The notes under the pieces are model-generated. The model was not told the DNA's origin. It worked only from the letters and a program-made list of their open reading frames with translations, and did no database searches. 34,967 nucleotides of DNA from Rhodocyclaceae bacterium (GTDB lineage Bacteria; Pseudomonadota; Gammaproteobacteria; Burkholderiales; Rhodocyclaceae). The position numbers were made by a program, and so were the translations under genes. Below are positions 4,367-34,967 of this stretch, piece after piece. The DNA is taken from assembly GCA_020445665.1 (NCBI GenBank), contig JAGRGD010000293.1:1-34967 (forward strand), written 5' to 3'. Numbering within the stretch: the stretch's first letter is position 1; every line of letters begins with the position of its first letter.

Positions 4367-4386
4367 GTCTGGTCTCCTCGCTCGGT

Positions 4387-5361: not shown

Positions 5362-5449
5362 TATCAGTCTCCTTCCTGGGTTGTGGTCTTGCAGACCGGT
5401 TGCAGCGGCGCGGAGCCGATGGCCCGTGCCGCGTGTTCTGTGATGGCGC

Positions 5450-6496: not shown

Positions 6497-6529
6497 GGCA
6501 GGGCTTCCGCAGTTCGATGTTCCCACCAG

Positions 6530-6545
6530 CGCACAGGCTGTGCCA
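6530..6545 (-). promoter_or_regulatory. Predicted sigma54 (-24/-12) promoter of acoX-ABC-lipA-thi
   Basis: Reading leftward, TGGCAC (6545-6540), five bases, then GTGCG gives GG at -24 and GC at -12 with the required 10-bp spacing. The -24 box is perfect; the -12 box has T-G-C of consensus TTGC. Transcription should start near 6519-6520, about 23 bases before the chosen acoX GTG. An adjacent sigma54 activator gene (acoR) makes this placement expected. Confidence 0.85.
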
Positions 6546-6672
6546 TGCGCATTCTCCAGCGCAGGGCCCCGGCCCCCTTCTGTCGGCTTTTACCTTTCAT
6601 CACAAGCCCTTGCGCGCCCCTCTCGCCGATCCCGCCGTCGCCCCGGACAGCCCCTGCGACTGCCGCGGCGGG

Positions 6673-6739
6673 CGAACACGTGAGTCACCGGGGGCGTCAC
6701 CGGCAGGACAGCTGTTGCACCTCGTGAGACACGTGTACG
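6673..6739. promoter_or_regulatory. Paired inverted 16-bp motifs, probable AcoR upstream activating sites
   Basis: CGAACACGTGAGTCAC (6673-6688) and GTGAGACACGTGTACG (6724-6739) are inverted copies matching at 13 of 16 positions. Each is centred on CACGTG. The two centres are 53 bp apart, close to five helical turns, so both would sit on the same face. They lie about 135 and 188 bp upstream of the -24 element, normal for enhancer sites of a sigma54 activator, and 105-158 bp before the acoR start, which would also allow autoregulation. Assignment to AcoR is inferred. Confidence 0.7.
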
Positions 6740-6837
6740 CATTGCGCGCCCCCGGTGCCTTCAATAACCTTCGACATAGGGGATCCCCCTGACGACACGA
6801 TCCGGTGGCTACGACTCACCGGACGGAGGAGACAAGA

Positions 6838-10862: not shown

Positions 10863-11039
10863 CGTCTCTCCTCACGACCCGGGTCGCGCCGCCCGCCGCG
10901 GGTGCGCCCCCGGGTAAAACAAGACCGCCCTGCGGCATCCTTCCTTTCCGCCGGGCCGACAATTTGTAAAAATTAACGTCTTTTGCACCTTGAGACCGGC
11001 GCCCCCCCGTTGAAGCCTGCCGGCCGCTGCGCGCGCTCC

Positions 11040-16459: not shown

Positions 16460-18523
16460 CTAGAGGTAGGAGGCCCGAATCAGGTCGACGTCAAATGGTG
16501 TGACGCTGCCATCTACTGAAAAAACCAAATCGGCTGTATCCCGTGATTCGGCATGGTGTCCTCGGGCCCGAACATGGAGATCAAATAGGTCATACAGATT
16601 CGGGCGGCGGCTATGCGCGAATGCGCGCAGCATGAGCGAAACACCACTCAGATTCTGGATGGTGTTGTTGAAGCCAGGACTGCGCTTGAGCGCAAGATCA
16701 AGCCAGATCACTCGATTCTCGAGCAGATCGAAGACCAATGGCAGGCAGATCTGACTGTTCGAGGCGATATCGATTCGATCTTCGACCGTCCTTGCATCGA
16801 AGATCTCGCCGGAGTTCGCGTCCAATCTGCTCATCCAGCCCGCGAAGCACTCAGGTAGCTCGCAAAATGGCTGCTCTGAGTAGCTATTGATCGATGCGAC
16901 GACAAATCGTACCTGCGATACTCGCAATCGCTGAAGATCCAGATCTATAAACTCCGCGGCCCCCTGCGGCGCATCGACTATATCTCCGCTGTGGCATCCG
17001 CCCCAGCCCGCGAGGTTGTAGTAGGCCAGTGAGTCAACGTAGCGGAAATCCGCGTCAAACATGGCCGCTGATAGGTCAATATCGGTGCGTGAGCGACCGT
17101 TCTTCCACCATAGAAATAGCCGAACAAATCGCGAGGACGGCAATGGCAGGCGACTGCCACGGGTAACCGTGCGCAGGCTGGTCGAAGCGCCCCGCTGCGA
17201 CATGGGAGCACAGTAGTCCGCCAATTCTGGCGCAACGTAGCAGGTGCCCAGCGGCGGCAGCTTCGAAAACCGCTCGAGCAGGATGCGATCCGTGGTTTTG
17301 ACAATGCGTTTCGTCGCCTCCACCGGCACCTCCGGTCGCAAGTCTTGCGTTGCAAAGGCCCTTACTAAGTCACCCTTAGGCAAGAAGACCCTCAGTCCTG
17401 GCACCTGCCGGTGCTGAAAGTGGGCACGCATCTGCAGAAGCACCGCTGTCGACACCTTCGCGGCGACTGTGTCAAAGGCGACGCAGACCGCGTCCTCGCT
17501 TCCATTCAGTCGGAGCATGTGGTCGAGCCGACGTGCAAGCTCACCCGGACGCTGTCGCAGCAGTCGGCTGGCCGACTCAGTGTCGCCAATCGCAAGCCAG
17601 TGCTCAACCTTGCGATTGAACGACTCCGCGCGCGTTCCAGCGCGAACGTTGGCAAACGCTCGGTGGCATACGGGGAAGCGACGAGCGTACTCACCCGGGT
17701 GCAACGCCTCTCCTAGTCGCTTCCAACGCTCTGGCCACCGAAACATATCTTCCTCGACTTCTTCACAAGCTTCGACCAGTGAAAGAAGGAAGCGGCGCAT
17801 CGCCCGCGAAAACCCGGTGAACTTTGTCGGCTCGAAGAGTGAAACATCACCCTTGCACTGGGCGACGGCTAGCCGCAGTACATCTGTGGGAGCGCGCATC
17901 TGCCGCCTGACGTATGCCTTGACAGCCGCTTCGTCGGGATACATGGCTAAGAGTTGAGCACAGACGATTGCGGCAATCTCTTTCACCGAGATGCTCTCAG
18001 GCAGCAGGCAGAGGGTATCCGGCCCAAAATGGACCATCATCTTGATGAGATCGTCCTTGTCCTGGGGCGAGAGGCTGCGCTTGGCGCCGGCGAGCTCGGT
18101 CATAATCGACGCAAGCTCAGCCGCACTACCGGCCTCGATCACCCGAGGCGCCTTGTCATGAAACAGTGGAGGGCGAGGTGACGCATCGAGTGGCAAGCGC
18201 CGAAGTGTCACGTAGTGCCAGAGGGCATTGAGATACAACTCCACACCACTCCTTCGCTGCACGTCTGCGGGAAAGTCAGGATAGAGCGGACTAAGGCCCC
18301 GATTGGCGCCAACAAGCGCGCGAAGGTCATCAAGCAGTGAGCGATGGAGCCGGGCGAGCGCCAAACCATCGAAGGTCTCGATGACGGCGCAAACCTCTGG
18401 CGCCAACACATAGCCCAGACGTTCGAGTTCCTCCTGCAGCGCAACGATTGACTCCGCCGCCGCCTTACCGCTACCCCGCGTCAAGAGCAACTTGCCGCGC
18501 CGCCTCAGATAGATGGATTGCAT
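16460..18523 (-). CDS. Large protein with C-terminal TerD-like domain
   Basis: This 687-residue soluble protein has no signal peptide or membrane segment. The N-terminal ~450 residues are helical and contain AKRSLSPQDKDDLIKMM, RAPTDVLRLAVAQCKGDVSLFEPTKF and HWLAIGDTESASRLLRQRPGELARRLDHML, the last resembling a repeat-like scaffold. From about 460 on there is a TerD-like pattern: RTDIDLSAAMFDADF, then YYNLAGWGGCHSGDIVDAP (HSGD at 511-514), FIDLDLQRL and VRFVVASINSY, matching the acidic calcium-binding TerD fold of tellurite/stress proteins. Codon use is less GC-rich than its neighbours and the gene stands alone between long non-coding stretches, suggesting transfer. The ATG at 18523 has a weak AGGG upstream. 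No other ter genes are nearby. Function unknown; TerD-like call moderately sure. Confidence 0.8.
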   Translation of the reverse strand: MQSIYLRRRGKLLLTRGSGKAAAESIVALQEELERLGYVLAPEVCAVIETFDGLALARLHRSLLDDLRALVGANRGLSPLYPDFPADVQRRSGVELYLNALWHYVTLRRLPLDASPRPPLFHDKAPRVIEAGSAAELASIMTELAGAKRSLSPQDKDDLIKMMVHFGPDTLCLLPESISVKEIAAIVCAQLLAMYPDEAAVKAYVRRQMRAPTDVLRLAVAQCKGDVSLFEPTKFTGFSRAMRRFLLSLVEACEEVEEDMFRWPERWKRLGEALHPGEYARRFPVCHRAFANVRAGTRAESFNRKVEHWLAIGDTESASRLLRQRPGELARRLDHMLRLNGSEDAVCVAFDTVAAKVSTAVLLQMRAHFQHRQVPGLRVFLPKGDLVRAFATQDLRPEVPVEATKRIVKTTDRILLERFSKLPPLGTCYVAPELADYCAPMSQRGASTSLRTVTRGSRLPLPSSRFVRLFLWWKNGRSRTDIDLSAAMFDADFRYVDSLAYYNLAGWGGCHSGDIVDAPQGAAEFIDLDLQRLRVSQVRFVVASINSYSEQPFCELPECFAGWMSRLDANSGEIFDARTVEDRIDIASNSQICLPLVFDLLENRVIWLDLALKRSPGFNNTIQNLSGVSLMLRAFAHSRRPNLYDLFDLHVRARGHHAESRDTADLVFSVDGSVTPFDVDLIRASYL

Positions 18524-19353: not shown

Positions 19354-20205
19354 TCAGAAGACGTAGGCGAAGCGCAGGTTCACGTTGTTGGACACCGGCA
19401 TGTTCTCGCCCTCGATGCCACCCTGGTAGTGCACCGACAGGTGGTAGGTGGGCGCCAAGTGGAACATCATGCCGACGGTGCCAACCCACTCGTGGGCGCT
19501 CGGGGCGTCGCCCTTGCTGCTCTGCCAGGCGTAGTCCAGACCGACGTAGGGCTCGATCAGGTCGGTGGCGCGATAGCCGAAGCGGTTGGTGAAGGCATAG
19601 GGGTTGGCCGGATCCGCGGCGCCGTCGTCTTCCGTGGGGCCGAGGATCGTGGCGGCCACGTTGCCGGTCCAGTTGAACTTGTCGAACTGACCATCCCAGA
19701 ACACCGAGGTGACGAAGTTCCAGCGCGTACCGCGCAGCTCGCGATCACCGATGGGCACCTGCAGGAAGCCGAAGTCGGCACCCAGGGTCCAGTTGGCGTT
19801 GGGCTTGATCCAGAAGGCCGGACCGACCAGCGCGTCGCCGATGCCGCTGACGCCGCCGCCATTCTCCCGGTCGTTGACGCTGACCTTCGGCACGATCAGT
19901 TCCATGGCGATGCCGACGTCCGGCGCGATTTCCCAGAAATGCACGAACTTGGAGAGGCTGACCAGGGTCTCGACGTCGCCGGCCTCGGTGCGGTCACCGC
20001 TGCCGTTCCAGACCTTCTTGGTCTTCTGGAACGTGGAGTACTCGACGAACACGTGCCAGGGCTCCATGCCGGCCGGGTTGGGCAGGGCGTATTCATGGGC
20101 GCCGATGAATCCGCGCTGGACCTGGGCCTGAGCCACGCCTGCGCCCAGGGCGCAACCGGCGATCACGGCGCTGGCGACGAACTTGCCGAACTTGTTTTGC
20201 TTCAT
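19354..20205 (-). CDS. Outer-membrane beta-barrel protein (MetA-pathway-of-phenol-degradation-like)
   Basis: This 283-residue protein starts with a clear Sec signal peptide (KQNKFGK, hydrophobic core, AQA cleavage near residue 27). It then shows alternating aromatic strands and ends RFAYVF, the terminal phenylalanine expected of an outer-membrane barrel. The strand pattern resembles the PF13557 family often found beside aromatic or alcohol degradation genes, where it is thought to help solute entry; the exact solute is unknown. The ATG at 20205 follows AAAAGGAAAATTCGCA. It lies 71 bases downstream of the AldA gene in the same direction, separated by a small hairpin. The likely role is substrate passage for the PQQ dehydrogenase pathway. 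Family moderately sure; role inferred. Confidence 0.75.
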   Translation of the reverse strand: MKQNKFGKFVASAVIAGCALGAGVAQAQVQRGFIGAHEYALPNPAGMEPWHVFVEYSTFQKTKKVWNGSGDRTEAGDVETLVSLSKFVHFWEIAPDVGIAMELIVPKVSVNDRENGGGVSGIGDALVGPAFWIKPNANWTLGADFGFLQVPIGDRELRGTRWNFVTSVFWDGQFDKFNWTGNVAATILGPTEDDGAADPANPYAFTNRFGYRATDLIEPYVGLDYAWQSSKGDAPSAHEWVGTVGMMFHLAPTYHLSVHYQGGIEGENMPVSNNVNLRFAYVF

Positions 20206-20227
20206 TGCGAATTTTCCTTTTCTGGAT

Positions 20228-20247
20228 GGGCGGCCTCGTGGCCGCCC
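20228..20247 (-). other. Intercistronic hairpin between aldA-type gene and outer-membrane gene
   Basis: GGGCGGCC (20228-20235), four bases, GGCCGCCC (20240-20247) form a perfect 8-bp stem. It lies between the aldehyde dehydrogenase stop at 20277 and the next start at 20205. No T-run follows on either strand. It may set differential expression of the barrel gene by attenuation or mRNA stability. Confidence 0.6.
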
Positions 20248-20276
20248 TTCGGTGCGACGGTTGGGGTAAGGGGTGC

Positions 20277-21710
20277 TCAGTGGGTCTGCAGGTAGACGAC
20301 GTGGGTCTCGGTGTACTCGTAGAGACCGTGCTTGCCGTCGGCGCCGCCGATGCCCGACTTGCGGCGGCCGGCGTGGAAGCCCTGCATCGCCTCGAAGTGC
20401 TCGCGGTTGACGTAGGTCTCGCCGAAGCGCAGCTCGCGGGTGGCCTTCATGGCGGCGTTGAGGTCGCGGGTGAAGACCGACGACGTCAGGCCGTACTCGG
20501 AGTCGTTGGCCAGGGCCAGCGCCTCGTCCAGGTCCTCGACGATCTGGATCGGCAGCACCGGTCCGAAGATCTCGCGGCGCATGATGTCCATCTCGCTGCG
20601 GCAGCCGACCAGCACCGTGGGCTCGTAGTGGAAGCCGTCGCGATCAGCGACGCGACCGCCCGAGAGCACCTCGGCGCCCTGCTGGCGCGCGCTGTCCACC
20701 AGCGCGGCGACCTTGTCGAGGCCGATGCGGTTCACCAGCGGACCCATCTGCAGGCCCTGCTCGGTCATCGGGTTGCCGTAGCGGGTCTCGGCCATCAGGG
20801 CGGTGACCTTCTGGGCCAGGGCCTCGGCGATGCCGCGCTGGGCATACACGCGCTCGGCGGCGTTGCAGACCTGTCCGGTGTTCAGCACGCGGGAGGCGTG
20901 CAGGGCGCGGGCGGTCAGCTCGAGGTCGGCGTCATTCAGGACGATGGCCGGCGCCTTGCCGCCCAGCTCCAGGTTCACCCGGGTCAGGTTGCGGGAGGCC
21001 GTCTCCATGATGCGGATGCCGGTCTCGACGCTGCCGGTGAAGCTCACCAGGCCGACGTCCTTGTGGGCGGACAGGGCCGCACCGGTAGCACCGGCACCAT
21101 TGACCAGGTTAAACACGCCGGCCGGCAGCTCGCACTCGGCCACGATCTCGGCGAACTCGACGGCGTTGAGCGGCGTCTCCTCACTGGACTTGATGACGAT
21201 GGTGTTGCCGGTCACCAGGGCCGGGGCCATCTTGCGGGCGATCAGGAAGAACGGGAAGTTCCAGGGCAGGATGCCTGCCGTGACACCGATCGGCTTGCGG
21301 TGCAGGAAGATCGTCTCGCCCGGCCGGTCGCTGGGGATGATCTCGCCTTCGATGCGGCGTGCCCACTCGGCCATGTAGTCCATGTAGTTGGCGGTGAAAT
21401 CCACCTCGACACGGGCCAGGTCCAGGATCTTGCCCTGCTCCAGGGTGATCGTGCGGGCCAGTCGCTCCTTGTGCTCGCGCAGCTTGTTCGCGATGCGGCG
21501 CAGGTGGCCGGCACGCTCGATCGCGGGCAGACGCTCCCAGGCGGGCTGGGCGCGGCGGGCCGCCTCGACGGCGCGATCCACGTCGGCCTGGGTCGAGGCC
21601 GGCACGACGCCCAGCAGCTCGTTGGTGGCAGGGTTGCGGACCTCGATGGTGGAGGCGCCTTCGGCATCGACGAACTGGTTGTCGATGAAGTTCTTGGTTG
21701 ACTTGCTCAT
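20277..21710 (-). CDS. NAD-dependent aldehyde dehydrogenase, AldA (lactaldehyde/glycolaldehyde) type
   Basis: This 477-residue aldehyde dehydrogenase has all catalytic residues: the PWN motif with N151, K174 in IVIKSSE, E248 in LELGGK and nucleophile C282 in GQVCNAAERV. It resembles E. coli AldA closely, including ILPWNFPFFLIARKMAPAL and, near the C-terminus, FGETYVNREHFEAMQGFHAG followed by GIGGADGKHGLYEY. AldA enzymes oxidise lactaldehyde and glycolaldehyde to 2-hydroxy acids. The ATG at 21710 is preferred because GAGG stands eight bases before it; the ATG two codons upstream would leave only three bases. A GntR-type operator half-match lies about 50 bases upstream. With the PQQ dehydrogenase upstream it would carry the second oxidation step. 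Confidence 0.93.
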   Translation of the reverse strand: MSKSTKNFIDNQFVDAEGASTIEVRNPATNELLGVVPASTQADVDRAVEAARRAQPAWERLPAIERAGHLRRIANKLREHKERLARTITLEQGKILDLARVEVDFTANYMDYMAEWARRIEGEIIPSDRPGETIFLHRKPIGVTAGILPWNFPFFLIARKMAPALVTGNTIVIKSSEETPLNAVEFAEIVAECELPAGVFNLVNGAGATGAALSAHKDVGLVSFTGSVETGIRIMETASRNLTRVNLELGGKAPAIVLNDADLELTARALHASRVLNTGQVCNAAERVYAQRGIAEALAQKVTALMAETRYGNPMTEQGLQMGPLVNRIGLDKVAALVDSARQQGAEVLSGGRVADRDGFHYEPTVLVGCRSEMDIMRREIFGPVLPIQIVEDLDEALALANDSEYGLTSSVFTRDLNAAMKATRELRFGETYVNREHFEAMQGFHAGRRKSGIGGADGKHGLYEYTETHVVYLQTH

Positions 21711-21759
21711 GTGCATGTCCTCACGCGTCTTGGGGGCACCGCCCTCTCACCATTCCGAA

Positions 21760-21773
21760 CTCCGTATTCAGTT
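21760..21773. promoter_or_regulatory. Candidate GntR operator, aldA-type gene
   Basis: CTCCGTATTCAGTT matches the 14-bp palindrome at 27106-27119 in 9 of 14 positions, including one complete half (ATTCAG). It sits in the 126-base gap before the aldehyde dehydrogenase gene. Read leftward its core is CTGAATAC, the same as the site before the gntR gene at 28980. Confidence 0.5.
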
Positions 21774-21836
21774 TGCACGGACAAAATGAAACGGAACGGG
21801 GTTCGATGACGGCGCCTCCGGATTGGGTCACTGGGA

Positions 21837-23576
21837 TTACTTGGCCAGCTTGTAGACCATGACCGTGCCGCCCTGCGGAACGTGGGTCACCTCGCCCAGC
21901 AGCCGGTCGATACCGCCCTGCATGCGCTGGGCATCGACGCCCCAGCCCGACTGCACGGCGATGTACTGCTCGCCATCCACCTCAAAGGAGGTCGGCACGC
22001 CGGTCACGCCCGAGGGGGTCGCGGTTTCCCACAGCTGCTTGCCGGTGGAGGCATCGAAGGCGCGGAACTTGCGGTCGTTGGTGCCGCCAGCAAAGACCAG
22101 GTTGCCCCCGGTGGTCAGCAGCGGGCCCCAGTTGAAGGTCGGGAACTTGTGGGTCCACACCTGCTTGCCGGTCTTGATGTCCCAGGCCTGGATTTCGCCA
22201 ATGGTCTTCGGCGCCTCCTTGGTATCCTTCGCCCAGCGCAGACCGGTCAGGATGGCCTCGATCGGGTAGCCGATGTAGAGGTCGCCCTTCTTGTACTTGG
22301 TCGGCTCCGGCTCGGGCAGCTCGGCGCACAGGTTATTGTTGGCCGGAATATAGAACAGGCCGGTCTTCGGGTTGTACGCCTCGGGCGTCCAGTCCTTGCC
22401 ACCCCATAGGGCCGGGCAGAAATGCACGTCACCCTTGCCAAGACCCGGGCGGCGGTCTTCGAAGTAGGTCGGGCGACCCGTCTTCTTGTCGATGGACTTG
22501 ATGGTGTTGTTGTTGACGTAGGGGTAGGCATCGACAAAGTTCAGCTTGCCGCCCTCGCGCTCCAGCACCCACAGGTAGCCGTTACGGCCGGCATGCACCG
22601 CCACCTTGCGGTTCTTGCCACCGATTTCCTTGTCGAACAGCACCGGGGCCGATACCTCGTCCCAGTCCCAGGCGTCGTTCGGGTTGTACTGGAAGTAGCC
22701 CTTCAGCGCGCCGGTATCCACATCCAGGGTGATCGTCGAGCCGGTGTAGAGGTTGTCGCCGGGGCGACCCTCGGTCGGCCACGGTGCCGGGTTGCCGGTC
22801 CCCCAGTAGGCCAGGTTGGTGGCCGGATCGTAGGTGCCGGTGATCCAGATGCTGCCGCCGCCATTCTTGTAGGCGCCCTCGGGCCAGGTGTCGCCGCCCG
22901 GCTCGCCCGGTGCCGCGGTGGTGAAGGTGCGCCAGGCTTCCTCGCCGGTCTCGGCGTCGAAGGCCGCGACGAAACCACGCACGCCGGTCTCGCCACCCGA
23001 GGAGCCGACCATGATCTTGCCCTTGGCGGCCAGCGGCGCGAGGGTGATGTACTGCAGGGCCTTCCAGTCGCCGACCTGCTTGGTCCAGATTTCCTTGCCG
23101 GTCTTGGCGTCGAGCGCGACCAGGTGGGCATCGACGGTGGCCACGTAGACCTTGTCGCCATACAGCGCCACACCCCGGTTGGTCGGGTGGAGCTGCAGCA
23201 TTTCCATCGGCAGCTCTTTCTTGTAGCGCCACAGCTCCTTGCCGGTGGCCGCCTCGAGGGCGATCACCTGGGCGCCCGGGGTCGTCACGAACATGTAGCC
23301 GTTGTTGACGATCGGCGGCGACTGGTGGCCTTCGAGCTGGCCGGTGGCAAAGGCCCAGGCCAGTTCCAGCTTGCCAACGTTCTTGTCGGTGATCTGCTCG
23401 AGCGGGCTATAGCCGAGGCCGGCGTAGGTACCGCGGTACTGCAGCCAGTTGGCCGCTTCGGGATTGGCCAGACGTGCATCGGTCACCGGCGAATACTCGC
23501 CCACGGCCGCGACGGCTGCAGCGACCGGCAGTGCGGCCACGACGCTCAGGGCGACGCCCTTCAGCAAACGCTTCAT
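21837..23576 (-). CDS. PQQ-dependent alcohol dehydrogenase, predicted lanthanide type
   Basis: This 579-residue periplasmic quinoprotein has a signal peptide (residues 1-24) and an eight-bladed propeller with W-docking repeats such as GKELWRYKK and GKEIWTKQV. It lacks a C-terminal cytochrome domain. Metal and catalytic positions are visible: Glu in GGETGVRG, Asn in GTGNPAPW and the catalytic Asp D304 in NDAWDWDEV. The residue two further on is D306, the extra Asp that marks XoxF, ExaF and PedH lanthanide enzymes, where calcium enzymes have Ala or Ser. The vicinal Cys pair normally before NRGVA is absent; the stretch reads LQLHPTNRGVA. The ATG at 23576 follows AAAGGAGACAAGTA. It lies 82 bases after the Rieske gene, probably co-transcribed. 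Substrate unknown. Confidence 0.93.
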   Translation of the reverse strand: MKRLLKGVALSVVAALPVAAAVAAVGEYSPVTDARLANPEAANWLQYRGTYAGLGYSPLEQITDKNVGKLELAWAFATGQLEGHQSPPIVNNGYMFVTTPGAQVIALEAATGKELWRYKKELPMEMLQLHPTNRGVALYGDKVYVATVDAHLVALDAKTGKEIWTKQVGDWKALQYITLAPLAAKGKIMVGSSGGETGVRGFVAAFDAETGEEAWRTFTTAAPGEPGGDTWPEGAYKNGGGSIWITGTYDPATNLAYWGTGNPAPWPTEGRPGDNLYTGSTITLDVDTGALKGYFQYNPNDAWDWDEVSAPVLFDKEIGGKNRKVAVHAGRNGYLWVLEREGGKLNFVDAYPYVNNNTIKSIDKKTGRPTYFEDRRPGLGKGDVHFCPALWGGKDWTPEAYNPKTGLFYIPANNNLCAELPEPEPTKYKKGDLYIGYPIEAILTGLRWAKDTKEAPKTIGEIQAWDIKTGKQVWTHKFPTFNWGPLLTTGGNLVFAGGTNDRKFRAFDASTGKQLWETATPSGVTGVPTSFEVDGEQYIAVQSGWGVDAQRMQGGIDRLLGEVTHVPQGGTVMVYKLAK

Positions 23577-23658
23577 TACTTGTCTCCTTTGGTGGATATG
23601 TCGACGACCCGGCAAAGACCGTCTTGCTGCAAAAAAAATCAGTGAGGCGGGAAAGGGC

Positions 23659-24282
23659 TCAGCCCTGGAGCATCGAGCCCGGTGGCGAGCTGAACTCGCC
23701 GGCGACCACCAGCTGGTCTCCTTCGAGGCGCAGCGGCAGGGCCGGCAGGGACCGCGGAGCCGGCCCGCCGGCGACGGCGCCCCGCTTGGTCGGGTTGAAC
23801 TTGGACGAATGGCAGAAGCAGGCGAAGACCTTCTCACTCTTCATCCAGGTCTTGATCTCGCAGCCCTGATGGGTGCAGATGGCCGAGAAGGCCAGTACGC
23901 CGCCGGCGGACAGCGCCTTGCTTTCTGCATCCAGCTCGGCTTCGGGCAGGCGCAGCAGCACGATCTTGTTGAGGCGCGATTCGGTGCGCGGTTTGCCGGT
24001 TTCGGCGTTGAGCGCAAAGGCCAGCAGCGGGCGTCCGACCGTCAGATCCTCGACCTTGAGGGGTGTCAGCGGACCCTCGGCGTCGTCTTCGACCAGGCGG
24101 TCGCCGATCGCGACGCGGGGCGCGGACGACGCCTCCTCGGCGTGGGCCACGCGCGCCGAGAGGGCCATCCCCCCCACCAGGCCGGCGGCGCCGGCGGCAG
24201 CCATCCGGAAGATCTTGCGGCGGGAAGGCATCCCGGGGGTCTGGACGGCCTCGGCCGTGCCCATGTCCTGCAGTTTCATCAT
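23659..24282 (-). CDS. Tat-exported Rieske [2Fe-2S] protein
   Basis: This 207-residue protein has a twin-arginine signal (SRRKIFRMAAAG, Arg21-22, hydrophobic stretch to about 48, AHA cleavage site). It has one Rieske cluster: CTHQGC with C136 and H138, and CFCHSS with C155 and H158, plus C141 and C157 placed for the stabilising disulfide. There is no membrane anchor apart from the Tat signal, which may be cleaved or retained. The ATG at 24282 has GGAGAGAGAC before it; in-frame starts at 24294 and 24333 are weaker. The gene directly precedes the PQQ dehydrogenase, suggesting a periplasmic electron acceptor or relay for that enzyme, a job usually done by a cytochrome c. Partnership is inferred from position. 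Confidence 0.92.
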   Translation of the reverse strand: MMKLQDMGTAEAVQTPGMPSRRKIFRMAAAGAAGLVGGMALSARVAHAEEASSAPRVAIGDRLVEDDAEGPLTPLKVEDLTVGRPLLAFALNAETGKPRTESRLNKIVLLRLPEAELDAESKALSAGGVLAFSAICTHQGCEIKTWMKSEKVFACFCHSSKFNPTKRGAVAGGPAPRSLPALPLRLEGDQLVVAGEFSSPPGSMLQG

Positions 24283-24332
24283 GTCTCTCTCCATCCTGAT
24301 CTGCTGGGTAGCGGGAGCACCTCCGCTTTGCA

Positions 24333-24379
24333 TTCAGAATTCGTTATTTTTCGCTACTATACACACTCTGAATTCAGCG
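24333..24379. promoter_or_regulatory. Two GntR-type operators flanking a -10 box before the Rieske-PQQ genes
   Basis: Site one, TTCAGAATTCGTTA (24333-24346), matches the 27106 palindrome in 10 of 14 positions. Site two, CTCTGAATTCAGCG (24366-24379), matches 11 of 14 and holds the perfect 10-bp core CTGAATTCAG. Their centres are 33 bp apart, about three helical turns. Between them, read leftward, is TATAGT (24361-24356), a good -10 box. This placement would let a repressor block the promoter. Confidence 0.75.
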
Positions 24380-24427
24380 TCCACAGTTTTTCAGAACTTT
24401 CTTGCCACGTTGCCGGCCGACGGCGGA

Positions 24428-25390
24428 TCAGGTCAGCAGGGCGACCGCGGCCGAAAACGTGACGAAGGCCAGTGCCGTGGTCACGAGCACGATCTGCGCG
24501 ATCCGCCCTGTGTCGGCCTGGAAGCGCTCGGCTAGCATCGGCACGTTGCTCGCGCTGGGCAGCGCAGCCACCAGCACCAGCACGGTCACGGCAAAGGGAT
24601 CGACGGGCAGGCCGACGCGCATGGCCAGCGTGCCGACCCCCAGCACCAGCAGGGGATGCACGATGAGCTTGTACAGGACCACCTTCGGCACATCCCCCCA
24701 GCCCCGCCCACTGCCGTCGGCGGGTGCCGTCATGCGGGTCCGCGCCAGCACCGCGCCAATCGTGAACAGGGCCGTCGGCGAGCCCGCCTCGGCGAGCATG
24801 TCGATGATCTGCATCACCGGGCCAAACAAGGTCAATTGGAAAGTCGAGGCCAGCCCACCCAGCAGGATCGCCCACGGCAAGGGATTGACGACGACACCCC
24901 GCAGCGCGCGTTGTGCCGCCTCGCGGGCGCCCTCCGCCCCACCACTGCCAAGGCGCGAGAGCGCAATGCACAGGGAGGACGTCACCACCATGTCGATGGC
25001 CAGGGGCACCATCACCGGACCGGCCGCCTGGGCGCCCAGCAGCGAGATCAAGAGCGGCATGCCCATGAAGCCGGAGTTCGGGAAGGCCGCCACCAGAGCG
25101 CCAAACGATGCATCGTTCCAGCCGATCCGTCCGCCTCTGGTGGTCTGGATCGCGAGCGCCACCATCGCCAGGGCGCACACGATCCAGACCACGAACACGC
25201 CCACGTCGAGCAGTTTGTCCAGGGGTGTGCCGGCGGCGAATCGGTACAGCATGCACGGCAGCGCGAAGTACAGGACGAAGCCGTTCAGGCCCGGGATGGC
25301 ATCCAGCGGCAGCATGCGGCTGCGCGCGGCCAGGTAGCCGCACAGCACCAGCGCGAAGAACGGGAAGGTGACGAACAGGATCTGTTGCAC
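24428..25390 (-). CDS. AEC-family membrane transporter
   Basis: This 320-residue protein has about ten hydrophobic segments in two halves, and the family pattern LNGFVLYFALPCMLYRF near residue 35-50 and AAFPNSGFMGMPLL (the NxGFMGxP signature) near 100. AEC carriers (auxin efflux carrier, malonate transporter MdcF types) move organic acids. The GTG at 25390 is preferred because VQQILFVTFPFFALVLCGY is the usual family N-terminus; upstream in-frame ATGs add a proline-rich tail unlike the family. Its ribosome binding site is weak. It follows the acyl-CoA synthetase gene by 87 bases and probably shares its transcript, so it may import the carboxylate that enzyme activates. Direction and substrate are not known. 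Confidence 0.87.
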   Translation of the reverse strand: MQQILFVTFPFFALVLCGYLAARSRMLPLDAIPGLNGFVLYFALPCMLYRFAAGTPLDKLLDVGVFVVWIVCALAMVALAIQTTRGGRIGWNDASFGALVAAFPNSGFMGMPLLISLLGAQAAGPVMVPLAIDMVVTSSLCIALSRLGSGGAEGAREAAQRALRGVVVNPLPWAILLGGLASTFQLTLFGPVMQIIDMLAEAGSPTALFTIGAVLARTRMTAPADGSGRGWGDVPKVVLYKLIVHPLLVLGVGTLAMRVGLPVDPFAVTVLVLVAALPSASNVPMLAERFQADTGRIAQIVLVTTALAFVTFSAAVALLT

Positions 25391-25477
25391 GGGGCGAGTT
25401 CCGTCCCCCCACCCCGGCAAGGCCGGCATGGGGGGCATCAGGCAGTCGGCAACCGGGCCCATCGGCCCGGTACGGGC

Positions 25478-27043
25478 TCAGGCGGCGGCGTCGAGCGGCT
25501 GGATGCGCTGGCGCAGCACCCGGTGCAGGATCTTGCCGGTGGCCGTGCGCGGCATGTCCGTGTCGCTGATGAAGACGATCGATCGCGGGCACTTGAAGGC
25601 GGCCAGGCGTTCGCGGCACCAGGCGGTCATCCCGGCGACATCGCCGGTCTGGCCTTCGTGCAGCACCACCACGGCCTGGACCGTCTCGCCCCACTTGTCA
25701 TGGGGTATGCCGATCACCGCCACGTCCTTGACCTGCGGATGGGCGCCGAGCACGCCTTCCACCTCCGACGGGTAAATGTTCTCGCCGCCGCTGATGATCA
25801 TGTTGCTCTTGCGGTCCACCAGCCAGATGTAGCCGTCTTCGTCACGGCGGGCCATGTCGCCCACCGAGCACCATTCGCCGCGGAAGGCCTCGGCGGTCTT
25901 CTCCGGGTTGCGCCAGTAGCCGTCGAAGACGTAGGACGTGCGCGAGAAGAGCTCGCCCACCTCGCCGTCCTCCACCTCGTTGCCGTTCTCGTCCAGCAGA
26001 CGGATCGCGCCGCTGCCGGCCCACTCGCGACCGACCGAGCCGAGCTTGACCAGTTGCTCGTGGGGACGCAGCAGCGTGACCCAGCCGGCCTCGGTGGAGC
26101 CGTACAGTTCATACAGCTTCCCGTTGCGGAAGTACTCGAGGATCGCCGTCTTGGTGCTCTTGCGTGCCGGCGCCGACGAGATCATCAGCTTTCCCACGCT
26201 GTCCATGTTGTAGCGCGCCTTCACGTCGTCGGGCAGCGACAGGATCATGATGTAATGGGTCGGCACCAGCGATGTGAAGGTGACCTTCTCCCGCGACAGG
26301 GTCGCCAGCAGGCCTTCGGGATCGAAGCTGCGGCGGTCGTCCACGATGATCGTCGCGCCCATGTGGATGAAGGTGGTGCCGAAGTACAGCGAGTTGGCAT
26401 GGCACAGGGGCATCACCAGCAGGCCGGTGTCTTCCGACGAGAAGCCCATCTCGAGCGCCGTCGCCAGGGCGATCAGCGTGCTGCCGGCGTGGTTGCGGAT
26501 CGCCCCCTTCGGGCGGCCCGTGGTGCCGGAGGTGTACATCAGTGCACACATGGCCTCGGGGGCGACCTGCGGAAAGTCCGCCTGCCCCGCCGCGCCGGCG
26601 ACCAGCGCCTCGTAGCCGATCCAGCCCTCGTGGGGCGCGTCGTCCAGCACCACGTAGCGCTTGCCCGCGATCGGCAGCTCGCCGCGGATCGCATCGACCG
26701 TCTCCACGAACTCGACGCCGGAGATCAGTGCGCCGGCTTCGCAGTTGTTCAGGATGTAGCTGATCTCGGGCCCGCTCAGGCGGAAGTTCAGGGGCACCTC
26801 GACCAGCCCGGCACGGGCGAGGCCGACGTACATCTCCATCCACTCGACGCAGTTGTAGGCCAGGATGCCGACCCGGTCACCGGCCGCCAGACCCTGCGCC
26901 AGCAGGGCTTCGGCGAGCCGACTGGCACGGCGGTCCCACTCGGCGTAGGTCAGGGAGCGACGCGAATCCCGGGTGCCCAGCTTGTTGGGCTGCAGGCGGG
27001 CGTGGGCGGCGACGGCGTCGGCGATGGTCAGAAGGTGGCTCAT
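25478..27043 (-). CDS. AMP-forming acyl-CoA synthetase
   Basis: This 521-residue ANL-superfamily ligase activates a carboxylic acid to acyl-AMP and then acyl-CoA. The ATP loop YTSGTTGRPKG lies at residues 170-180, YGSTEAG is motif II, GDMARRDEDGYIWLVDRKSNMI is motif III with the hinge, and the catalytic lysine of PRTATGKILHRV is K504. The small-acid specificity pocket cannot be read reliably by eye. The ATG at 27043 follows GGAGGAGACACCGAAC. It is the first gene of a leftward unit, divergent from a TPP lyase-like enzyme across one perfect GntR palindrome. Pairing with that enzyme suggests a 2-hydroxy or 2-keto acid substrate. Benzoate- or crotonobetaine-type ligases are alternatives. Confidence 0.92.
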   Translation of the reverse strand: MSHLLTIADAVAAHARLQPNKLGTRDSRRSLTYAEWDRRASRLAEALLAQGLAAGDRVGILAYNCVEWMEMYVGLARAGLVEVPLNFRLSGPEISYILNNCEAGALISGVEFVETVDAIRGELPIAGKRYVVLDDAPHEGWIGYEALVAGAAGQADFPQVAPEAMCALMYTSGTTGRPKGAIRNHAGSTLIALATALEMGFSSEDTGLLVMPLCHANSLYFGTTFIHMGATIIVDDRRSFDPEGLLATLSREKVTFTSLVPTHYIMILSLPDDVKARYNMDSVGKLMISSAPARKSTKTAILEYFRNGKLYELYGSTEAGWVTLLRPHEQLVKLGSVGREWAGSGAIRLLDENGNEVEDGEVGELFSRTSYVFDGYWRNPEKTAEAFRGEWCSVGDMARRDEDGYIWLVDRKSNMIISGGENIYPSEVEGVLGAHPQVKDVAVIGIPHDKWGETVQAVVVLHEGQTGDVAGMTAWCRERLAAFKCPRSIVFISDTDMPRTATGKILHRVLRQRIQPLDAAA

Positions 27044-27105
27044 GTTCGGTGTCTCCTCCGGGGTGCCCCGGCCTGGGTGTGATTGGTGACGTAAATTTTT
27101 CTGTC

Positions 27106-27119
27106 TTCTGAATTCAGAA
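27106..27119. promoter_or_regulatory. Perfect 14-bp palindrome, best GntR operator
   Basis: TTCTGAATTCAGAA is an exact palindrome in the divergent region between the acyl-CoA synthetase (start 27043) and the TPP enzyme (start 27237). A -10-like TATGAT begins six bases to its right (27125-27130) for rightward transcription, placing the site over the -35 region. It is the reference for the weaker copies at 21760, 24333, 24366 and 28980. Confidence 0.8.
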
Positions 27120-27236
27120 TGCTCTATGATGCATCACAAGTCAATCACCTTTTTTCTTCGCTGAGACACCGGCCGTCGGATGGGACCACTCCCGGAGAAC
27201 CGGCGCGGGGGCGACACCACACCAGGAGACAACACC

Positions 27237-28985
27237 ATGAACACCCTGCAACCGATCTCGGATCAATCCGCCGCGGCGCTCATCGCCCGCTTTCTCAAGC
27301 AGCGTGGCATCCAGCGGGTCTATGCCCTGTGCGGCGGCCACATCATGCCGCTGTGGATGCGGCTCGATCACGAAGGCATCCGTATCATCGACGTGCGCGA
27401 CGAGCGCGCCGCGGTCTACATGGCGCACGCCGAGGCCCAGCTCACCGGCAACTTCGGCGTGGCCCTGGTCACCGCCGGCCCGGGCGTCACCAACGCCATG
27501 ACCGGCATCGCCAATGCCGACGTGGCCCGCGCGCCCGTGCTGGTGCTCTCCGGCACCCCGCCCCGCCAGCAGGAGAACCGCGGCGCCCTGCAGGACATGG
27601 TGCACACTGACCTGGTGCGCAGCATCACCCGCTACGCCCGCACCGTGCGCGAGCCCGAGCTGGTGTTGCGCGAGCTGGACGAGGCCGTCACCCGCGCCCA
27701 GGGCCACGGCGGCGAGCCCGGCCCCGTGTATCTGGACTTTCCGGTGGACACCCTGCGTGCCGACGTGCCGGCCGCCATCCAGCTGCCCGAGTACTTCGCG
27801 CCGAAAACGGCGCCGGTCTGCCCGCCCGACCCGGCCGCCATCGCCGATGCGGTCGAGCTGCTGTGGTCGGCCAGGCGACCGCTGTTCATCTCCGGCCGCG
27901 GCGCCCAGGGTGCCGGCCCAGAGCTGTGCGCCCTGCTATCCGCCCTCGGCGCCCCCTATCTGGATACCGGCGAGAGCCGCGGCCTGGTGCCGGAAGAGCA
28001 CCCCTCGGTGGTCGCCGCCATGCGCGGCTCGGTAATGGGTCAGGCCGACCTCGTCGTCACCGTCGGCCGCCGCCTCGACTTCCAGCTGGCCTACGGTTCG
28101 CCGGCCGTCTTCGGCGAGGCGAAGTTCCTGCGCATTGCCGACTGCACCGCCGAGCTGCGTGACAACCGCCGCGGCGCGGTCGAGTTGCTCGGCACGCCGG
28201 CCCTCGCCCTGCAGGCCCTCCTCGATGCCGCCGGCGACCGCCAGCCGGCCACCGACACCGACTGGGCGGCCACCCTGCGCGCCAAGCACTGCGAGCGCTC
28301 GGAGAAGCTCGTCACCACGATGCGCAACTCGCCCGATGGCCCGGACGGCCTGATGCACCCGAACCGGGCCGTCGCCGCCCTGCGCGACGCGCTGCAGGCG
28401 GACGCCGTGGTGGTCGCCGACGGTGGCGACTTCCTGAGCTTCGCCCGGGTCGGCCTGCCCGCCACCACCTACCTCGACCCGGGCTCCCTCGGCTGCATCG
28501 GCGTCGGCACCCCGTTCGGCGTCGCCGCCAGCCTGGCCTGCCCCGACCGCACCGTGGTGGTGGCCACCGGTGACGGCGCCTTCGGCTTCAACGCCATGGA
28601 AATGGACACCGCTGTGCGCCACGAGGCGCCGGTGCTGATCATGGTGGCCAACAACGGCTCCTGGGCGATCGAGGTGCGCGACCAGCAGGAGACCCACGGC
28701 CGCGTGGTCGGCACCCACCTGCGCTTCTCGGACTACGCCGGCATGGCCCGCGCCCTGGGCATGCATGCCGAGCGGGTCGAGCGTGCGGAAGACCTGCCGG
28801 CTGCCATCGAGCGCGCCCTGGCCAACCGCCCGGCCCTGCTGGACGTGCTCGTCACCCCCGATGCGGCCTCGTCGGACGGCAAGAGTGGGCTCGCGTGGGT
28901 ACCCGATCTGCAACCCCTCGCGGCCTGGGACCAGGCGGAGCGCCGCTGGCGTGCCGGGGGCGCCGAGGCCGGTGATAAACTCTGA
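27237..28985 (+). CDS. TPP-dependent enzyme, acetolactate synthase / 2-hydroxyacyl-CoA lyase superfamily
   Basis: This 582-residue three-domain thiamine diphosphate enzyme has the N-terminal PYR domain with catalytic glutamate E56 (DVRDERAAVYMAHAEA) and VTAGPGVTNAMTGIANA. A middle domain follows (VTVGRRLDFQLAYGSP). The C-terminal PP domain has GDG at 445-447 and closes with NN in MVANNGSW. The family covers acetolactate synthase, benzoylformate decarboxylase, oxalyl-CoA decarboxylase and 2-hydroxyacyl-CoA lyase, which eye alignment cannot separate. The ATG at 27237 follows CAGGAGACAACACC. Divergence from an acyl-CoA synthetase and co-regulation with alcohol and aldehyde dehydrogenases argue for a CoA-thioester lyase or keto-acid decarboxylase rather than branched-chain amino acid synthesis; no ilvN-like small subunit is adjacent. 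Confidence 0.85.
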   Translation: MNTLQPISDQSAAALIARFLKQRGIQRVYALCGGHIMPLWMRLDHEGIRIIDVRDERAAVYMAHAEAQLTGNFGVALVTAGPGVTNAMTGIANADVARAPVLVLSGTPPRQQENRGALQDMVHTDLVRSITRYARTVREPELVLRELDEAVTRAQGHGGEPGPVYLDFPVDTLRADVPAAIQLPEYFAPKTAPVCPPDPAAIADAVELLWSARRPLFISGRGAQGAGPELCALLSALGAPYLDTGESRGLVPEEHPSVVAAMRGSVMGQADLVVTVGRRLDFQLAYGSPAVFGEAKFLRIADCTAELRDNRRGAVELLGTPALALQALLDAAGDRQPATDTDWAATLRAKHCERSEKLVTTMRNSPDGPDGLMHPNRAVAALRDALQADAVVVADGGDFLSFARVGLPATTYLDPGSLGCIGVGTPFGVAASLACPDRTVVVATGDGAFGFNAMEMDTAVRHEAPVLIMVANNGSWAIEVRDQQETHGRVVGTHLRFSDYAGMARALGMHAERVERAEDLPAAIERALANRPALLDVLVTPDAASSDGKSGLAWVPDLQPLAAWDQAERRWRAGGAEAGDKL

Positions 28986-28993
28986 ATACCGTC
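28980..28993. promoter_or_regulatory. Candidate GntR operator before gntR
   Basis: CTCTGAATACCGTC matches the 27106 palindrome at 9 of 14 positions, with one complete half (TCTGAAT). It overlaps the stop codon of the TPP enzyme and lies 18 bases before the gntR start, where it could mediate autoregulation. The match is weak on its own; its value lies in being one of several at meaningful positions. Confidence 0.45.
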
Positions 28994-29010
28994 ACTCACC
29001 GCGTGTCATC

Positions 29011-29715
29011 ATGAAAGTCCTCGAGGCCCAGCCAAAACTCGTCGAACAGGTCTACGAAGCCATTCTCGAAGAGATTTCGACCGGCAGGCTGAGCCCCGGG
29101 GAGCGGGTCATCCAGGAACAGCTGGCGAAGGAACTGGGCGTATCGCGCCAGCCGGTCCAGCAGTCGCTGCTGCTGCTGCGCAACCAGGGCGTCCTGCAGG
29201 ATGCCCCGGGTCGCGGCCTGCAGGTGGCGCCCCTCGACATCGACTACGTGCGCAACATGTACGACATGCGCGCCGTCCTCGAGGGGCTGGCCTGCCGACT
29301 GGCCGCAGAGAACCAGGCCAAGGCCGCCAAGGCGCGCGGCCCGGCACTGATCCGCGCCGGCAAGAAGGCGGTCGAATCCGGCTCGGTGAGCGGCATGATC
29401 GCCGCCGACATGGCCTTCCACAACATGATCTACGAGCTGTCGGGCAACCCGCTTATCGCCCCGACCATGGAATCCCACTGGACCAGCGCCCGGCGCGTCA
29501 TGGGCGAGGTGCTGCTGCTCGACGACCAGCCCCGCAACGTCTGGAGCCAGCACGAGGCCATCCTCGAGGCCATCGGCAATGGCGACGGGGCCAAGGCCGA
29601 GTCGCTGGCCCGCACCCACATCTCGGAAGCGGCCGCGTTCATGATCGACAAGCTGCGGGAGTTGCAGGCGGCCCAGACGGCCGAGCCCGCCGCGGCGCCC
29701 CGGCTAAAGCGCTGA
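29011..29715 (+). CDS. GntR-family regulator, FCD (FadR C-terminal) subfamily
   Basis: This 234-residue regulator has a winged-helix domain at about residues 8-75 (LVEQVYEAILEEISTGRLSPGERVIQEQLAKELGVSRQPVQQSLLLL). The all-helical FCD ligand domain follows at about 80-222 (YDMRAVLEGLACRLAA, then DMAFHNMIYELSGNPL, HEAILEAI and HISEAA), with histidines placed for the usual metal-bound carboxylate pocket. FCD regulators commonly sense organic acids. The ATG at 29011 fits the family N-terminus; its ribosome binding site is poor and translation may be coupled to the upstream TPP enzyme gene 25 bases before. It is the natural binder of the CTGAATTCAG palindromes across 21760-28993. Confidence 0.93.
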   Translation: MKVLEAQPKLVEQVYEAILEEISTGRLSPGERVIQEQLAKELGVSRQPVQQSLLLLRNQGVLQDAPGRGLQVAPLDIDYVRNMYDMRAVLEGLACRLAAENQAKAAKARGPALIRAGKKAVESGSVSGMIAADMAFHNMIYELSGNPLIAPTMESHWTSARRVMGEVLLLDDQPRNVWSQHEAILEAIGNGDGAKAESLARTHISEAAAFMIDKLRELQAAQTAEPAAAPRLKR

Positions 29716-34459: not shown

Positions 34460-34967
34460 TCAGATGCCGGAGCCCAGCCCCTGCGGCAGGTGGCCGGTGC
34501 TATTGAAACTCCTGAGGGTGCAGCGCCCGCCCGAGTAGACGATCTCCGTCACCGACGCGTTGCCGAGCACCCGCAGCAATTCGGCCCAGCGCGTGTCGTC
34601 GAGGCCCAGCACCTCGCAGGTGAGGGCGCAGATGACGCCGGCGGACGTCACCGCCAGGGTGTGTTGCCCACGCAGATTCTGGGCCATCAATTCTTCCAGC
34701 CACTGGCGCACGCGAGCGCGGAAGGCCCCGTAGGAGGCCCGCCCGCCCAGCGCGATCTCGCCGCGGAACCACGCGAGATACGCGGCCTCGTAGCTTTTCA
34801 GCTGCTCTGCTGTCGTCGGCGCGTCGCGGCCCCACATGGGCCGGCCGGCTTGCCGCTCGGCGGCCGACAGGATCTCCTCGCCCTCGGCGAATTCGTCGAG
34901 GCCCGCATCGCTCACTGCGGCGGGCCCCGCGCCGGCGCCCTCGAGGATCAGCGCCGCGGTGTCGATA
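34460..34967 (-). CDS. Histidine-phosphatase (phosphoglycerate mutase-like) protein, partial
   Basis: The reading frame is open to the right edge, so the N-terminus with the RHG motif is missing; about 168 codons are visible. The segment DTAALILEG, then LDEFAEGEEI, and HTLAVTSAGVICALTCEVLGL near the end fits the branch-2 histidine phosphatase fold. Where most members have a second catalytic histidine (VSHGG) this one reads VTSAG, so it belongs to a divergent group or has lost activity. Substrate unknown. The internal GTG at 34915 is not likely the true start. Confidence 0.75.
   Translation of the reverse strand, partial: IDTAALILEGAGAGPAAVSDAGLDEFAEGEEILSAAERQAGRPMWGRDAPTTAEQLKSYEAAYLAWFRGEIALGGRASYGAFRARVRQWLEELMAQNLRGQHTLAVTSAGVICALTCEVLGLDDTRWAELLRVLGNASVTEIVYSGGRCTLRSFNSTGHLPQGLGSGI

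Follow-up and report, generated by a model that had tools for sequence, protein, structure and literature searches.

The window, i.e., the whole stretch of 34,967 nucleotides analyzed here, is contig C205 (JAGRGD010000293.1) of the 4.79-Mb draft genome of a Rhodocyclaceae bacterium (GCA_020445665.1), the nearest named relatives of which are Rhodocyclaceae metagenome-assembled genomes, Aromatoleum and Azoarcus. Between positions 19,354 and 29,715 it carries eight genes in two groups. The right-hand, plus-strand group consists of a thiamine diphosphate (TPP)-dependent enzyme and gntR, while the left-hand, minus-strand group comprises genes for an acyl-CoA synthetase and an AEC carrier, followed by those for a Rieske protein, a pyrroloquinoline quinone (PQQ)-dependent dehydrogenase, an AldA-type dehydrogenase and a porin. 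The initial annotation had ordered these functions into a route from a diol through a 2-hydroxy acid and its CoA ester to cleavage by the TPP enzyme; all eight genes were found where it had placed them, and all but the porin match the expected families. Taken together, the results point to a probable catabolic regulon under GntR control, centered on a short-chain 2-hydroxyacyl-CoA lyase (HACL) and with a predicted flow from diol to 2-hydroxy acid, CoA ester and cleavage. The features of the window that bear on this reading are as follows:

19354–20205, minus strand: outer-membrane channel, COG4313-like (AlphaFold model and PDB fold match)
20277–21716, minus strand: AldA-type aldehyde dehydrogenase of the lactaldehyde/glycolaldehyde class (NF007497, 2opx)
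21837–23576, minus strand: PQQ-dependent dehydrogenase with the lanthanide-type second Asp and without the vicinal Cys pair (TIGR03075)
23659–24333, minus strand: Rieske [2Fe-2S] protein, proposed acceptor of electrons from the PQQ enzyme; its start is Tat-like by eye
24366–24379, unstranded: GntR operator-like palindrome 5' of the Rieske-PQQ-AldA-porin operon (one mismatch to the 12-mer core, three to the 14-mer)
24428–25462, minus strand: AEC-family transporter (PF03547, 104 bits)
25478–27043, minus strand: acyl-CoA synthetase, FadD-like, unrelated to HCL
27106–27119, unstranded: operator-like palindrome TTCTGAATTCAGAA in the divergent synthetase/HACL promoter (no mismatches)
27237–28985, plus strand: putative TPP-dependent HACL, Glu479 corresponding to E493 of AcHACL
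29011–29715, plus strand: GntR/FCD regulator, presumed binder of the palindrome
34460–34967, minus strand: histidine phosphatase cut by the contig end, the first visible gene of a levulinate-type operon that apparently continues on contig C113

Judged against relatives, the real start of the AEC transporter is probably at about 25387, and the start codon of the Rieske protein may lie further in.

The TPP enzyme scores 821.5 bits against the NCBIfam equivalog for 2-hydroxyacyl-CoA lyase (NF058623; cut-off, 600). The runner-up family, PRK05858 acetolactate synthase, reaches 372 bits (cut-off, 587), and two oxalyl-CoA decarboxylase (Oxc) profiles give 264 and 241 bits, below their cut-offs of 557 and 739. 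Among solved structures, the lyase 7pt1 (AcHACL) matches with 610 bits and the best chain named Oxc with 228. According to PMC8760513, E493 is the acid-base residue of AcHACL, and L127, I492 and a C-terminal lid restrict its substrate to C5. All three size-limiting elements are conserved in the aligned window enzyme, and the catalytic Glu corresponds to its Glu479; this Glu is present in 61 of the 62 aligned enzymes, the remaining one having a gap, whereas E. coli Oxc has Tyr at this position. The Gln41 of the AcHACL type, which holds E493 in place, is replaced by Cys in the window enzyme, in 42 of 43 enzymes from synthetase-type loci and in all nine readable ones from HCL-type loci (both types are described below), including that of Methylibium petroleiphilum PM1, i.e., the position varies within the family. 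At position 491, 37 of 42 synthetase-type enzymes have Ala and nine of ten HCL-type enzymes have Gln, with L052 as the exception; as it tracks phylogeny, it was dropped as a substrate marker. In a 42-row tree, the window enzyme groups with AcHACL and proteobacterial homologues (support, 100/98), E. coli Oxc falls outside, and IlvI, Gcl and PoxB lie further out still. The tree is rooted at the midpoint and contains several long reference branches, the joins of which may be false according to the program's warning; own-genome paralogues (L082, L083 and L088, the best-length frames of which did not align as TPP enzymes) and benzoylformate decarboxylase (BFD) were left out. Thus, the clustering with acetolactate synthases that would have spoken against the initial annotation was not observed, nor was clustering with Oxc, and for BFD, which has no row in the tree, the comparison is limited to its absence among the 25 top-scoring of the 55 NCBIfam matches. 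Profile scores, Glu479 and the tree led to the rejection of acetolactate synthase, Gcl, PoxB and Oxc identities. The NF058623 score, the conserved active site and the grouping with AcHACL bear out the earlier suggestion of a lyase, and the TPP enzyme is, as judged from its sequence, a short-chain HACL.

A scan of a genome collection for HACL kept 80 loci. The comparison covered 62 loci: L001–L058 (66–95% identical), three plasmid loci (51–84%) and the window; L059–L078 and L080 (30–35% identical) and L079, a fragment at a contig end, were set aside. Genes were counted by tblastn with identity cut-offs chosen by hand, and, as the loci stop at contig ends or 10 kb and are related to each other, the counts are neither independent nor complete and absences are not proof. 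A related synthetase was found in 43 loci, 40 of which also carry gntR. Genes for the PQQ dehydrogenase and a TRAP carrier occur in 16 loci each, AEC and the levulinate-type acyl-CoA dehydrogenase (ACAD) in 14 each, and AldA in 11. The gene set of the window recurs in Aromatoleum (L002, L004) and, by the deposited annotation, on plasmid pAZKH of Azoarcus sp. KH32C, and it is found in part in many other loci; given this recurrence, it is more than a chance grouping. The ligase HCL was detected in none of the 43 synthetase-bearing loci, the window included, but in ten of the other 19, nine of which also have a B12-dependent mutase gene. Two kinds of HACL locus, synthetase-type and HCL-type, are therefore distinguished. 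The window synthetase has no meaningful similarity to the ligase at the HCL position of PM1, and the HCL ligase of the lyase-HCL 2-hydroxyisobutyrate pathway is lacking from the window cluster. On plasmid RPME01 of PM1 (L090, 481481–507163), a HACL homologue (62.6% identical) lies among GntR, B12-binding, HCL-type ligase, MeaB and mutase genes. HACL and HCL also occur together in nine further loci (L036, L045, L048–L050, L052–L054 and L056), eight of them with the mutase, and a set resembling that of PM1 is present in the archaeon Natrinema zhouii (L092). In a further type of locus (L025, L037, L042–L044, L161 and L165), the CoA synthetase adjoining HACL is about 30% identical to that of the window; some of these loci also carry an MFS-like gene (by eye) or a Rieske-PQQ pair.

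Enumeration of palindromes upstream of the cluster genes yielded TCTGAATTCAGA, found in 59 of 174 regions, compared with at most two regions for any 6+6 palindrome in five shuffles; the regions partly overlap, since divergent genes share one gap. In the window, the palindrome is exact between the synthetase and HACL genes and has one core mismatch before the Rieske gene. With up to three mismatches, the window contains four matches (0.16 expected), a number reached in none of 100 shuffles. With at most one mismatch, the whole genome contains four places, i.e., the two in the window, C113:258 and C265:20236, and the reversed control gave none. The C265 site, which falls in the terminal part of a frame resembling a sulfotransferase by eye and is 59 bases before the next frame, was taken as chance. 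Across 61 sequences (the window, L001–L058, L089 and L121), 70 of 75 palindrome sites are located between −60 and 420 bases from the start of a synthetase, HACL, Rieske, DctP, GntR or ACAD gene, while five shuffles of the same sequences contained 2, 0, 0, 1 and 0 sites in all. Of the five other sites, two are found in L020 some 460–500 bases ahead of ACAD, and one is in L019 in front of a gene that resembles DctP by eye. The HCL-type loci are among those without the palindrome. Upstream of the Rieske gene it was found in 10 of 16 regions at up to three mismatches (null, 0.6%) and in 7 of 16 at up to two (null, 0.03%), and four loci (L015, L018, L022 and L030) have a separate gntR of the same subfamily that is divergent to the Rieske gene. 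Since the palindrome is common to both window operons, the ACAD operon described below and the sites in relatives, the synthetase/HACL, Rieske-PQQ-AldA-porin and ACAD operons look like one predicted GntR regulon, with the GntR of the window as the probable binder of the palindrome. The initial annotation had placed the oxidation and ligase-lyase genes in one route; the shared palindrome agrees with this, and the regulon appears larger than was drawn there.

The exact 13-mer is present in 22 of 25 HACL genomes, with two places away from known loci by coordinates. One of them (G140:C2; L153, 4268) is 77 bases before an operon for a branched-chain-type ABC transporter (by eye), a possible regulon member; the other is at the start of contig G138:C96. 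Neither site points to a substrate. In Limnobacter (L020; 7030 and 4735–6891), the palindrome precedes a TonB-receptor-like gene (by eye), possibly an extra member.

The 3.9-kb contig C113 of the same genome carries ACAD, short-chain dehydrogenase/reductase (SDR), APH-type kinase and DUF6285 genes, and the palindrome starts 93 bases before ACAD. At its other end, the terminal bases (25 according to a script, 28 by eye) are the same as at the right end of the window, within the gene for the histidine phosphatase. Genes in the order phosphatase, DUF6285, kinase, SDR, ACAD adjoin HACL-GntR in L002, L004, L006, L019, L020, L057 and pAZKH. The lvaABCD-type set, with kinase, DUF6285, ACAD and SDR together, is present outside the window, on C113 and in the Rhodocyclaceae loci L006 and L057. 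Identity to a cluster of Stutzerimonas stutzeri S116, called levulinate-like from its gene content alone, is 73% for ACAD, 55% for the kinase and 54% for SDR. Of the 28 synthetase-type HACL genomes searched (there are 43 loci of this type), 15 contain a related ACAD, only 52% identical in two of them; it was detected in none of the seven other HACL genomes and in at least 10 of 250 genomes of the order, this one included; because at most seven candidates per genome were scored order-wide and up to 53 in HACL genomes, the contrast is an upper estimate. The levulinate-type ACAD-SDR-phosphotransferase operon, with its copy of the palindrome, seems to belong to the regulon. In PMC11342911, the ACAD domain of ACAD10 is given as 62% identical to LvaC, and ACAD10/11 and LvaA/LvaC are described as acting on 4-hydroxyacyl-CoAs. 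As the C113 protein scores only 206 bits against ACAD11, it may not be a strict orthologue of Pseudomonas putida LvaC. No description of HACL joined to a levulinate-type module was found in open-licence literature judged by title and abstract.

The PQQ dehydrogenase scores 580 bits against TIGR03075 (cut-off, 480), and its best solved match is 6zcv (372 bits), which we take to be PedH. A second Asp two residues past the catalytic Asp is a mark of lanthanide enzymes, and the alignment contains it in all 16 PQQ dehydrogenase sequences; by this motif, the enzyme is predicted to be of the lanthanide type. It thus resembles XoxF and PedH in its family and in the Glu-Asn-Asp-Asp-Arg set. A vicinal disulphide is usual in this family, but the Cys pair is absent from all 16 sequences, where 6zcv has CC. 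Further differences from XoxF and PedH are that no cytochrome c gene was seen beside the PQQ gene (none is listed for the pAZKH cluster either, in a gene table said to be incomplete) and that the Rieske partner is constant. Among the 62 loci, the Rieske gene stands beside the PQQ dehydrogenase gene in all 16 that have the latter. In 14 aligned Rieske sequences, the six motif Cys/His residues are invariant, as is an Arg pair ahead of a hydrophobic stretch, taken by eye as a Tat signal. The best fold match of the Rieske model (pLDDT, 80.7) is Thermus Rieske protein 1nyk, with AioB among further matches. In arsenite oxidase AioAB, a Rieske subunit is encoded next to the oxidoreductase; the adjacency is similar here, but the partner is a quinoprotein instead of a molybdenum enzyme, and the pairing is known from gene adjacency.

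In 250 genomes of the order, the PQQ subfamily (E-values up to 1e-150) was found in 9 genomes, at 10 or more places, and the Rieske family in 10 genomes, at 11 or more places, both counts being lower bounds, as the searches scored a limited number of candidates per genome (at most 11 in one and 5 in the other); some of these genomes overlap the loci above (L165 shows genes of L042). By coordinates, all ten PQQ places, the window included, adjoin a Rieske place, and one Rieske place (G224) is without such a partner. Among eight of these stretches, HACL was seen in L161 and L165 and not in L159, L160, L162, L164 and L166, and L163 is without gene calls. The genome studied here has a second Rieske-PQQ-porin-aldehyde dehydrogenase set (G000:C78:4152–9476, L159) by a sigma-54-type regulator, and a Rieske-PQQ cassette in L160 is near a similar regulator (by eye); because both occur without HACL in the stretch read, the cassette seems to form an independent unit. 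The Rieske protein would take electrons from the PQQ dehydrogenase, making the two a candidate new electron-acceptor pair, a proposal drawn from the adjacency of the genes. Open-licence literature, judged by title and abstract, contained no description of a Rieske-PQQ pair; PMC11102522 is the one paper retrieved for this combination in which the word Rieske occurs, a single time. The genome also encodes pqqE for PQQ synthesis (525 bits).

The AldA-type dehydrogenase scores 737 bits against NF007497 (cut-off, 500) and 589 bits against PDB entry 2opx ("Aldehyde dehydrogenase A"); together with the Asp-type PQQ enzyme it fits a predicted oxidation of a diol to a 2-hydroxy acid. The porin has no match in Pfam or NCBIfam; its AlphaFold model (mean pLDDT, 69) is an all-beta barrel with the COG4313 channel 4rl8 as the best PDB match (TM, 0.70; 18% identity). 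An Fdh-alpha gene is present in the genome (711 bits), and plasmid pAZKH carries a formate dehydrogenase operon that is separated from the porin gene by two genes and about 2 kb. An epoxide hydrolase, a source of diols, was found in two of the 43 synthetase-bearing loci.

These gene identities, the HACL active site, the shared palindrome, the Rieske-PQQ adjacency and the co-occurrence of the levulinate-type ACAD were read from the sequences, and the following route, in which each reaction, substrate and direction as well as palindrome binding by GntR are predictions, would connect them. A small 1,2-diol would enter via the COG4313-like channel and be oxidized by the periplasmic PQQ dehydrogenase to a 2-hydroxy aldehyde, with electrons passing to the co-encoded Rieske protein. 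The AldA-type dehydrogenase would convert the aldehyde to a 2-hydroxy acid, which in relatives may also come in via AEC or TRAP carriers. The FadD-like synthetase would form the CoA ester, and HACL would split it into formyl-CoA and a carbonyl compound one carbon shorter. Formyl-CoA would end as formate for formate dehydrogenase, and the co-regulated levulinate-type module may handle the carbonyl product or a related 4-oxo/4-hydroxy acid. The initial annotation had assigned transport of the acid to AEC; this carrier indeed accompanies the cluster in relatives, but so do TRAP carriers. Several observations weigh against the route as a whole. The levulinate-type module has no place in a simple sequence from diol to acid to lyase, and the size-limiting residues would argue against the larger substrates that could explain it. 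The PQQ module is present in only 16 of the 62 loci, and, because many consist just of synthetase, HACL and GntR, the diol step is optional. A formate dehydrogenase operon is near the cluster in one of 43 synthetase-bearing loci. Acetone carboxylase gamma (PF08882) was detected in 9 of 35 HACL genomes (a 36th, that of L020, was outside the search) and in 17 of 101 relatives. As a marker of an acetone product, acetone carboxylase was rejected, being unsystematic and confounded: it is present in all six members of the genus that were sampled, including one (G038) with no HACL match at the cut-off used.

The second half of the route is already known, since in Actinomycetospora, as described in PMC7176365 (Rohwerder et al.), 2-methyl-1,2-propanediol is converted via 2-hydroxyisobutyrate to acetone and formate, and the lyase, HCL, MpdB and MpdC are encoded beside GntR. 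Of the diol-to-lyase route proposed as a candidate new pathway by the initial annotation, the lyase identity, the link between the two operons (through the shared palindrome) and the fit of the AldA-type and PQQ enzymes to a diol oxidation are supported, while the acid-to-lyase half is published and the levulinate-type operon does not fit. The window shares with the Actinomycetospora chiangmaiensis cluster (PMC7176365; structure, PMC8760513) the HACL equivalog and its active site, GntR, genes for diol and aldehyde oxidation and a CoA ligase. What differs here is the ligase, FadD-like instead of HCL, and the oxidation front end, where a PQQ enzyme with a Rieske protein replaces MpdB and an AldA-type enzyme replaces MpdC; the levulinate-type module and the shared palindrome are further differences. 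The HCL-HcmAB (2-hydroxyisobutyryl-CoA mutase) operon of PM1 likewise contains a homologue of HACL whose active-site residues are almost the same, but the window cluster has neither B12 mutase nor HCL. For Mycolicibacterium ELW1, PMC13188929 raises the possibility of a minor route through a TPP lyase. The levulinate cluster of Pseudomonas citronellolis, as given in PMC6692424, contains a kinase, histidine phosphatase, ACAD and SDR, as does the module here, which has DUF6285 in common with S. stutzeri S116. Unlike the Pseudomonas lva operon, it is found under a GntR-type palindrome beside HACL, and no lva-type regulator was seen adjoining it.

Two other accounts concern the substrate. It is possible, though on balance doubtful, that the cluster serves the known tertiary-acid route with another dehydrogenase and ligase, in which 2-methyl-1,2-propanediol or a close homologue would yield 2-hydroxyisobutyrate and then acetone (or butanone) and formyl-CoA. 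AcHACL performs this reaction according to PMC7176365 and PMC8760513, the residues holding it to C5 or less (L127, I492 and the lid) are kept, the 62.6% identical homologue of PM1 lies in a mutase/HCL-type operon of a methyl tert-butyl ether degrader, and a tertiary acid would be a reason to need a lyase. On the other hand, HCL is missing from all synthetase-bearing loci and the synthetase is not meaningfully similar to the PM1 ligase, acetone carboxylase is not systematic, the Ala/Gln difference at position 491 separates the two locus types (maybe by phylogeny only), and the levulinate-type module is left unexplained. That module would be accounted for if HACL fed it a 4-oxo/4-hydroxy acid or aldehyde, for example by splitting 2-hydroxy-2-methylglutaryl-CoA to levulinate and formyl-CoA, or 2,5-dihydroxyvaleryl-CoA to 4-hydroxybutanal and formyl-CoA with AldA, synthetase, kinase and ACAD acting next. 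The palindrome before ACAD in this genome and in L019 and L020, the identities to the S116 cluster and the distribution of ACAD among HACL genomes favor such a feed. However, C6 acyl groups are not accepted by AcHACL, whose size-limiting residues the window enzyme retains, 13 of 28 synthetase-type genomes lack ACAD at the cut-off used, the order-wide background may be undercounted, and the module may act on a second compound that shares the inducer; this account is regarded as rather unlikely. Similarly unlikely is its combined form, in which one regulon would join two links without precedent: a subfamily of quinoprotein alcohol dehydrogenases passing electrons to a dedicated, exported Rieske protein and not to a cytochrome c, and a HACL that releases formyl-CoA and hands a 4-oxo/4-hydroxy skeleton to the levulinate-type kinase/ACAD module.

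The remaining accounts change the role of single parts. The Rieske-PQQ-AldA-porin operon might be a separate alcohol-oxidation cassette that lies beside a hydroxy-acid cluster by chance, as its occurrence without HACL in L159 and L160 would suggest; the palindrome before it in the window and relatives and the divergent gntR of the same subfamily in four loci make this improbable. There is also little chance that HACL works in reverse, condensing formyl-CoA with a ketone or aldehyde. The reaction is reversible according to PMC8760513, and HACL is found with a B12 mutase in some relatives, as proposed for acetone use in Desulfococcus biacutus (discussed in PMC7176365), but no mutase gene was found in the 43 synthetase-bearing loci, and the presence of a CoA ligase and acid carriers makes the acid the likely input there. 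Finally, a 2-keto-acid decarboxylase, Oxc or acetolactate synthase identity of the TPP enzyme is hardly credible: these enzymes belong to the same superfamily and produce sizeable scores (372 bits for PRK05858, 264 for Oxc), but both remain below their cut-offs while HACL exceeds its own, Glu is kept where E. coli Oxc has Tyr, and the tree, albeit with no BFD row, places the enzyme apart from acetolactate synthase, Gcl, PoxB and Oxc. Altogether, the cluster is real and conserved and probably co-regulated; the Rieske-PQQ pair is its possibly new element, and the levulinate-type module is its puzzle.

Elsewhere in the window, an acetoin dehydrogenase operon lies upstream of the cluster (2244–8880; E2, NF011457, 493 bits, cut-off 307), together with a sigma-54-type, AcoR-like regulator. 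A 1676-aa frame at 10983–16013 resembles a PAS-GGDEF-EAL signalling protein (by eye). The 687-aa protein encoded at 16460–18523, where G+C is below that of the surroundings, reaches 484 bits against NF041916 (RING_SCO0854 family; cut-off, 600) and had no match in a Pfam search.

HACL enzymes are sought for one-carbon chemistry, and only one natural short-chain HACL pathway was found described in open-licence literature. The loci compared here add dozens of HACLs from proteobacteria, and for many of these an operator is predicted. The carriers include cultivable isolates, i.e., Azoarcus sp. KH32C and Aromatoleum tolulyticum, both of which have the complete cluster, Ramlibacter and Hydrogenophaga, and together with the predicted operator these offer a direct way toward the substrate. 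The constant pairing of Rieske and PQQ genes, in turn, raises the testable question of whether a Rieske protein can accept electrons from quinoproteins.

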